64,000 bases of DNA from Lepidurus packardi (Eukaryota > Arthropoda > Branchiopoda > Notostraca > Triopsidae): NCBI GenBank assembly GCA_023053545.1, contig JAKZAN010000119.1:18501-82500 (forward strand), given 5' to 3'. Below are positions 58,651-60,714 of this stretch, in pieces. Numbering within the stretch: the stretch's first letter is position 1; every line of letters starts with the position of its first letter. The notes beneath the pieces are model-generated. The model was given only the letters and a program-made list of their open reading frames with translations. It searched no databases and had not been told where the DNA came from. The position numbers and the translations under genes were made by a program.

Positions 58651-60714
58651 ATGGCCAGGACCAAACAAACTGCTCGAAAGAGCACGGCGGCTGCTGTTCC
58701 AAGGCTCAGAATCCCCACTTCAACTCATCCCCACCCTGCCCCAGCCGTACACTCACCTCTACTCCGAGAAGAGCATTCTCTCGATACTAGACAGTTCTCT
58801 ATAAAGTTTGATGACCAAGTGGAATGTGAGAAAACTGCGATTAGAGTGAAAAAGGAGTCAGAGGTCCTTTTTAGGTGCAGAGATTGTGGGGCAATCATGA
58901 CTTCAGGCAAGTCAAATATCCTTTAGAACTCCCAGTACGTATAGTTGAAAATGTCAGAAACATAAAGGAGGAACGAGACTGAACTATCTGACGAAGTCCG
59001 ATAGAAATACTTTGATACTCGCCTAAGGGTATGGATCTGCTAATTTTGCTGCTGCCATAACTAGGTGCCTTAAGACTTCATACTCCTTAAATAGTAGAAC
59101 CCTTGTCTTCTTATCGAGTAGCTCGCTGACCCTCAAAGCAGACGCTAACACTTAAAGGTCCCTGATAATATGAGTCGAAAGGGCTCTGCAAGTACTAGAA
59201 AAAATGAACAATTGCTTATTTTTTGTATTGATGTGTCGTCGAGCATGGAGTGCAAGGAGCTTGTGTCGGCTAGCAGTAAGGATAGAAAATCTCGGATCAG
59301 TTGCGTGAAGGAAGCCGTCATCGACGAACTTAGGAAACTAAGGATAGATAAAAAAAAGATAGCGGGATTGGTCAGCTTCGGCAGCAAAATCATCATATAT
59401 GGAGATGGAGTATCTAAGTAACAGGAGTTTCCGATAAACTTGTCTTTTGAACAAGTAGTTAAAAAAGCTACAGATTACACTCAACTTTTTACTCAAGATA
59501 TTGTGACCAGCTATGAAAACCTCAAATAAATTGTTGAGGAGATCATGCCTTTTGGTAGTACTGCTCTTGGGCCCGCTTTGCTAGCTTCCATAGCTCTGGC
59601 TGCCCAAGGTGCTGCAGGCTCGAAAGTCATTATATGCACGGATGGGTAGGCAAATCAGGGGATCGGAGGAACAAATGACGAGGAGTTTTACACTAGGGCT
59701 GCATAGTTCGCAAAGTAGAAAGGAGTGACAGTGAGTGTATTGTCAATCAAGGGTGCCAACTGCAACCTTAAGCTTTTGGGGAAGATCACTTCTAGCACTT
59801 CGGGGTCTATGATGAAGGTCGATCCTAGCAAGCTCGGTACTGAGTTCGAGAAGATCGTCTCAGATCATGTCTTGGGGACGAATAGCGAGATACTCATTCG
59901 CATGAATAAGCGATTCATGCTAAAGAATTGCGACCAGAAGATGCTGTCGGATTACGATAGAGTGTACAGGCAACCTTATGGAAATTTTACAGCAGAAACT
60001 GAACTAACTTTTGAATTCGAGCTCGTTGCAGTCGAAGATGCGAAGATTCTCAAACACGTCAGACCAGAAATGTATCAGCAGACCCATCTGCCCATGCAAG
60101 TCTAGATAACCTACACTTCCTCCACTGACGGCAACACTTATCTCCAGGTCTTTACTGACCAGAGAGAGATTACCGAGGACGAAGATGCAGTTTTCTAAGA
60201 TGCCAATTTCGGACTCTTTGCAGCCTCCATCCTCCAAAAGTCCTCAGACCTTATCAAGGCTGGCAGGTTCCCCTAAGCCCAGAAAATCATTCAAAGGTAT
60301 AGGACACTCGTCTCAGAGAAGTTCAGCAAGTTCAAAGAAAACGAGGAGAAAATTAAGAGTTTTAATAGCAGGATCGATAAAATCTAAATGGTAATGGATA
60401 GCAAGAGGTAGAAAATGCATGCGGGAAGCTAATCTGGGTCGGACAGTTCAAAGAGAAGGCAATCTGAAAGTATGAGCGACTCGGACAGTTAGAGATCGCG
60501 GTCGAGGGAGGCGGGCAGGCGCCGATCAAATCGTATATTGGCAAAGTAGAAGAAAGGAGAGAAGAAGAGTATGGGGAGAAAGAAAGAAGTCAGTGTTAGG
60601 ACACGGAAGAAAGAGGGTAGGGGGAAAAGAGAGAGGAGAAGAATAATGAATTCGGACTCGGAAGAAGAGATTCTGTGCAAGGAAAGAAGAGCCAGGTCGG
60701 TTTCTCGAGATTGA
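58651..60714 (+). CDS. Histone H3-tail-mimic fused to Sec24-like zinc finger and VWA domain
   Basis: A 687-residue intron-less protein. After Met, residues 1-11 ([11 protein letters not shown]) equal the first 11 residues of histone H3, with Pro-Arg again at H3 positions 16-17; no histone fold follows. Then comes a Sec23/24-type zinc ribbon (FRCRDCGA ... WICEFCCCHNEVPEDF) and a VWA domain with intact MIDAS: DVSSS, the Thr in GSTALGPAL and the Asp in CTDG. A helical segment and a Ser/Arg/Lys-rich tail (SDSERSRSREAGRRRSNR, RTRKKEGRGKRERRR) suggest nuclear location. The whole frame was followed from ATG 58651 to TGA 60712-60714, with about 25 UAR as Glu. Function unknown; H3 mimicry is inferred from identity. 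Confidence 0.82.

Follow-up and report, generated by a model that had tools for sequence, protein, structure and literature searches.

An exact histone H3 N-terminus on a ciliate VWA/zinc-ribbon protein and its conservation in a subfamily

The H3-tailed gene and its surroundings

The window, by which is meant the whole stretch of 64,000 nucleotides analysed here (G000:C108:18501-82500), contains a gene whose product begins with the N-terminal tail of histone H3. The reading frame is open through 687 codons, and its sole TGA is codon 688. The gene and its parts are:

58651..60714, + strand: whole gene, 687 amino acids and a TGA; can be read without an intron; 24 TAA/TAG codons in frame, read as Glu
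58591..58650, + strand: AT-rich stretch directly 5′ of the ATG, probable 5′ leader or promoter from its base composition; no in-frame ATG
58651..58704, + strand: H3-like N-terminus (Met plus H3 positions 1-17), from the translation, the host's own H3 genes and the same first nine residues in the relatives P0005-P0007
58876..59049, + strand: Sec23/Sec24-like zinc ribbon, C76-x2-C79 ... C130-x2-C133, from cysteine positions (zf-Sec23_Sec24 E 0.018, below cut-off)
59215..59850, + strand: VWA domain (approximate limits) with MIDAS residues D194-S196-S198, T304 and D331, from Pfam, alignment and PDB profile matches
60382..60711, + strand: basic Arg/Ser-rich C-terminus (last 110 residues), nuclear-type, with 36 Lys plus Arg and 7 RS/SR

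Base composition changes at the start codon: in 30-base blocks the AT content is 80% and 70% just 5′ of the ATG, against 50% and 37% just 3′ of it, and an in-frame ATG is absent from the stretch between the first upstream in-frame TGA (58447) and the start codon. Directly upstream lies an AMMECR1-like gene, apparently with one intron (57749-58430, + strand). The minus strand at 44458-56994 encodes a repeat protein of 4178 residues, rich in Cys and with membrane segments towards its C-terminus; by eye it is a giant surface protein of furin-like type.

The original prediction held that an exact H3 tail is followed by a Sec24-like ribbon, an intact VWA MIDAS and a Lys/Arg/Ser-rich end, and the architecture bears this out. 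The 11 residues after the initiator Met are those of canonical H3, the Pro-Arg pair sits in H3 register as P16-R17, and K14 and K18 are missing. Assuming equal residue frequencies, the chance of 11 exact N-terminal residues is ∼20^-11. No histone family appears in the Pfam scan of the protein, and among the 60 of 133 PDB profile matches listed, H3 chains cover profile positions 1-43 at most. Further along, the cysteines of the ribbon, the 36 basic residues of the C-terminus and the MIDAS motifs (DVSSS, T304, D331) are all present. In an alignment of 28 sequences, T304 and D331 are invariant and D194, S196 and S198 occur in at least 90%.

The VWA domain is matched in Pfam by Sec23_trunk (E 2.3e-5) and VWA_2 (E 1.4e-4), both under the curated cut-off, and in the PDB by Sec24A with profile A1 over positions 191-370. 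The full layout of COPII Sec23/Sec24 (zinc finger, trunk, beta-sandwich, helical and gelsolin domains) is not found, the Pfam scan (P0002) giving only the sub-threshold trunk and zinc-finger matches. The protein has the two features of the Ras-less branch of CPRas1-type proteins, a VWA domain with intact MIDAS and an upstream four-cysteine zinc finger, and its database relatives reach E values down to 5e-103. The circularly permuted Ras domain of CPRas1 proper has no counterpart, since none of the 6 Pfam matches of the protein (P0002) is a Ras family. Judged by these features, the gene is a member of a ciliate-type VWA/zinc-ribbon subfamily that lacks the Ras domain and is related to CPRas1 over the C-terminal half of the latter.

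Host organism and genetic code

Macronuclear chromosomes of ciliates are expected to carry CCCCAA end repeats. Such telomere repeats begin contig C108 and occupy both ends of contig C109; at the other end of C108 and at the fetched ends of contigs C76, C87 and C283 no CCCCAA repeat was seen. C108 is a ciliate contig within a mixed assembly, whose contigs have three looks, animal-like, ciliate and bacterial-looking, so that at least three organisms seem to be included.

The genetic code is the peritrich code (table 30), in which TAA and TAG specify Glu. The prolyl-tRNA synthetase encoded in the window has five in-frame TAA/TAG codons aligned with its top PDB match, and four of them (residues 172, 332, 345 and 455) face Glu, the fifth (residue 547) facing His. 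In the H3-tailed gene the Glu reading yields the motif CEFC, as in P0005 and P0006 (CDFC in P0007), and the motif DGEAN, as in P0004 and P0005 (DGLAN in P0006, DGMAN in P0007).

Conservation of the nine N-terminal residues

A protein search (39 proteins) and a profile search (37, of which 4 were new) together gave 43 relatives, and the N-termini of all 43 were checked. Three of them, P0005, P0006 and P0007, start with MARTKQTAR like the window protein. A further protein with this start, P0046, has histone domains and was set aside as a histone model. Among the remaining 39, 24 start with M-x-F or M-x-C, the common N-terminus of the family, and the rest vary or are incomplete. P0004 and P0043 both start inside the conserved region, lack a complete N-terminus and are uninformative about the tail; every subfamily member with its N-terminus present (4/4) carries it. 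The same ciliate also has an untailed paralog on C109, which starts MKKASNYAFLNRR.

A tree was built with the window protein, the C109 paralog and 24 of the 43 database proteins, after residues 1-45 had been removed from the tailed rows. Even without the tails, the four tailed and the two N-terminally incomplete rows form one clade (100/100), which is joined by the C109 paralog and P0008 (97/92). The simplest reading of this tree would be a single gain of the tail, independent gains being formally possible. Both P0006 and P0007 point to ciliates by their place in the tree and by the style of their H3-like prefix, and P0005 by its place in the tree: against a Tetrahymena-type H3 sequence, the prefix including Met agrees at 24/25 positions in P0007 and 22/24 in P0006.

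Outside the tail, P0005-P0007 share 29-45% identity with the window protein. No invariant run in the alignment of the four is longer than the tail, with its 9 residues; the next, TALGP of the VWA core, has 5, and of the 31 shared columns that follow the nine only 1 is invariant. When the invariant columns were shuffled, a run of at least 9 arose in 6 of 100,000 trials, a figure that ignores the clustering of conserved columns. As the first nine amino acids are unchanged even in distant relatives, the copied tail probably has a function, acting as bait or handle for the proteins by which chromatin tails are read or cut.

What the subfamily conserves is ARTKQTAR, placed directly after the initiator Met. 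Past this point the tail of the window protein, that of P0005 and those of the pair P0006/P0007 are strongly divergent from one another; residue 9 is K in the window protein and P0007, M in P0005 and C in P0006, and S10, K14, K18 and K27 also vary among the tailed members. Around residue 15 the peritrich protein of the window has VPR, and P0006/P0007 have GAK(A/R)PRKQLASK. The earlier claim that K4, R8, K9 and S10 all stand in their native H3 context is thus correct for the window protein itself, but K9 and S10 are not kept in its relatives. Because P0005 has M9 and P0006 has C9, methylation of K9 cannot be the common function, and a K9-based reading of the tail was set aside.

All three full-length tailed members have an Arg/Ser-rich C-terminus, with 12 RS/SR in P0006 and 19 in P0007; P0005 is cut at its C-terminus and gives no information on this. 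These basic ends would fit a nuclear protein. They are not exclusive to tailed members, since 17 RS/SR are present in the final 110 residues of the untailed P0030.

Residues 1-40 of P0007, used as a database query, matched 816 proteins, and among the 120 listed all 119 besides P0007 itself have the H3 core motif. Further non-histone H3 tails may exist in the databases. Among the open-licence PMC papers listed for the topic, none shows an H3-tailed VWA protein.

Relation to the H3 genes of the assembly and origin of the tail

The H3 genes of the assembly were searched with a degenerate DNA pattern for the H3 start, which gave 49 exact matches. Forty-five lie on contigs C2, C3, C4, C5, C9, C25 and C28, many of them evenly spaced as in tandem arrays, and the 30 of these that were translated (L001-L030) have an animal-like H3 start. 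Three, on C76 and C87 (L064, L065 and L066), are the ciliate's own H3, and one is the gene in the window. A protein-level search of the assembly with the first 61 residues found 48 places besides the gene itself, and as all of these are H3 starts, the H3 tail is found on one non-histone gene of the assembly.

With many H3 genes in a mixed assembly, a chimeric joint could be suspected, or else a wrongly chosen start codon. Either is extremely improbable: the first 30 bases of the tail differ from each of the 48 other H3-start matches, the same arrangement recurs in three other records, and the frame and the AT boundary fit the ATG. The tailed relatives, identical over the first nine residues, thereby answer the objections that the tail is a chimera or is missing elsewhere.

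The tail of the window protein agrees with the ciliate's own H3 at 15/17 residues (16/18 including Met), and its A12 and V15 are common to that H3 and absent from canonical H3. This weakly suggests that the tail follows the H3 of its host, the signal being weak because the stretch is Ala-rich. The ciliate's own H3 tail is itself divergent, all three genes (L064-L066) reading (V/A)AQK(I/V)ARK, with AQKV where others have GGKA. The assembly also contains an H3-fold stretch (L068, G000:C283:36627-36932), 44% identical and with 2 in-frame TAG, which is possibly the ciliate's centromeric H3.

At the codon level the likeness is less marked. Over the 11 residues after Met, the tail has 6, 5 and 4 codons in common with the ciliate's three H3 genes, where codon usage predicts 3.96, 3.94 and 3.92 (P 0.16, 0.35 and 0.60); the three H3 genes share 5 to 8 of 11 codons among themselves. 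As codon identity is near the codon-usage expectation, the likeness of tail to H3 is mainly at the protein level. Synonymous codons are not significantly closer to those of the ciliate's H3 genes than expected, so the capture was no recent event, and the residues have probably been maintained by selection. The original suggestion that a 5′ fragment of an H3 gene was captured is plausible, but the event must be old: recent capture of a local H3 gene is ruled out by the codon comparison. Capture from an animal-like H3 is unlikely, the animal-like sequence having GGKAPR and, in the one copy compared, 4/11 codons in common with the tail. The proposal is that an H3 tail took the place of the usual N-terminus in the distant past.

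The tail could also be the fossil of such a gene fusion, without a present role. Decay sets in after residue 9 in P0005 and after about residue 12 in the window protein, as a fossil would have it, but nine residues are invariant across a deep split, next to a linker that can scarcely be aligned, and synonymous sites lie close to what codon usage predicts. This explanation is already disfavoured, and we regard it as quite unlikely.

Outside the assembly, in viral contigs, 45 stretches fit the peptide pattern and none is a relative by tblastn; the DNA pattern for the first tail residues gave 0 stretches there. In prokaryotic genomes 252 stretches fit the pattern, of which 3 encode distant VWA relatives with 23-25% identity.

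Comparison with known systems

PAF15, a small protein that binds PCNA and partly resembles H3, would be the nearest functional precedent: PAF15/PCLAF, which is read and ubiquitylated by UHRF1, is likewise a non-histone protein whose N-terminus imitates that of H3, whereas the ciliate protein has eleven exact residues at its N-terminus and these stand on a VWA/zinc-ribbon protein. The UHRF1 PHD finger is reported to bind the H3-like N-terminus of PAF15 with a Kd of 2.2 µM, compared with 1.5 µM for H3 (PMC7060239). P0007 has a weak Pfam PAF match over residues 1-40 (E 0.033, below cut-off).

The likeness to the CPRas1 family and its Ras-less VWA relatives lies in the zinc finger plus VWA half (PMC2430557); the window protein differs in that the common M-x-F/M-x-C N-terminus is replaced by the H3 tail and in its Arg/Ser-rich end. 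Tetrahymena and Paramecium have a larger family of paralogs related to CPRas1 (Elias and Novotny 2008, PMC2430557). The passages of that 2008 account on CPRas1-type relatives give them no specific function, and the word 'histone' has 0 occurrences in its main text.

A proposed H3 mimic and its alternatives

Readers of the H3 N-terminus grip A1-R2-T3-K4, and ARTKQTAR is their epitope. The reading we lean towards, with modest confidence, is that a nuclear VWA adaptor has since ancient times carried a mimic of the H3 N-terminus, much as in the pairing of PAF15 with UHRF1. It is favoured by the invariant ARTKQTAR epitope, the precedent of PAF15, the Arg/Ser-rich ends and the SET and PHD regions of the ciliate. 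The initiator Met would be removed as in H3, leaving a free A1-R2-T3-K4-Q5-T6-A7-R8. This end would then be bound by proteins that grip the H3 N-terminus, such as PHD-type readers of K4, WDR5/COMPASS-type proteins or similar, and the VWA adaptor would thereby be brought to chromatin at the H3 N-terminus, or would compete with chromatin there. Which partner is recruited is not shown by the VWA domain alone. The original idea of H3-tail mimicry by a cellular VWA/zinc-ribbon protein gains support from the conservation across the subfamily.

Ciliate-type contigs encode PHD and SET domains, an E(z)-like protein on C169 and a PHD-plus-SET region on C289 (names given by eye from motifs). Chromo domains are also matched in the mixed assembly as a whole. 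The best SET match, on C278 (L084), was dropped: by eye this is a bacterial-looking contig, with the SET-domain protein beside a biotin-ligase-like frame. A haspin search gave a strong match on the animal-type contig C3 and five weak ones, which may be other kinases. A PHD-rich, BRPF/JADE-like protein had also been placed in the window, and the window does contain one at 36409-40031 (+ strand), with one PHD, a zinc domain resembling a PHD (HC5HC2H) and, downstream, another PHD; a distance of ∼19 kb on a macronuclear chromosome is, however, no evidence of interaction, and that argument was set aside.

The most interesting rival is that the protease which clips H3 in ciliates takes the tail as a substrate or is decoyed by it, the protein being either cut like H3 or able to hold the protease back in one nucleus. 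In Tetrahymena, H3 is cut after residue 6 (ARTKQT|A) in the micronucleus only; both the clip after six residues and its micronuclear restriction are documented (PMC13198579). The invariant ARTKQTAR covers this site and extends two residues beyond the cut; as it spans the clip site exactly, the protein could be cut like H3 or restrain the protease. The tailed clade also groups with the own paralog of the window's ciliate. Plain reader binding, however, explains the same residues, which leaves this possibility unlikely.

More tentatively, the docking reading may be extended: a stand-alone H3 N-terminus on a ciliate VWA adaptor, read, modified or clipped by chromatin machinery, might link a complex outside chromatin to that machinery, perhaps including the protease whose clipping of H3 marks the micronucleus, with the tail following the H3 of its host. 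This extension we hold to be doubtful.

EZHIP and the K27M oncohistones present an H3-like peptide with a K-to-M change. Changes of oncohistone-like appearance occur in the tailed relatives: near H3 positions 24-28, K27 is replaced by L in P0006 and by M in P0007, which share C25, and K9 is replaced by M in P0005. A pseudosubstrate trap for H3 lysine methyltransferases would account for such residues, and the SET protein on ciliate contig C169, with a cysteine-rich CXC-like stretch, is of E(z) type by eye. The likeness to EZHIP and K27M is confined to the K-to-M at K27 (P0007) or K9 (P0005): the window protein has an intact K9, no K27 segment and no such change, the changes differ from member to member in three cases only, and EZHIP is eutherian. 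A trap is therefore very unlikely.

Most known cases of histone mimicry are short motifs in viruses and in a few cellular proteins. The automethylation site of G9a, influenza NS1 and SARS-CoV-2 ORF8 are mimics of the short ARK(S/T) type, mostly not at a free N-terminus; like the ciliate tail, they are short H3-like peptides on non-histone proteins. If the docking reading is true, a conserved protist subfamily with an exact N-terminal copy of H3 would be among the longest cellular mimics and would amount to a natural experiment on which H3 residues suffice, namely 1-8 and not K9. It would also bear on how the germline and somatic nuclei of ciliates treat H3 N-termini, and on the identity of the clipping protease. 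Residues 10-43 of P0005, which follow ARTKQTAR, are Gly/Lys-rich and recall the acetylation tails of H4 or H2A.Z.
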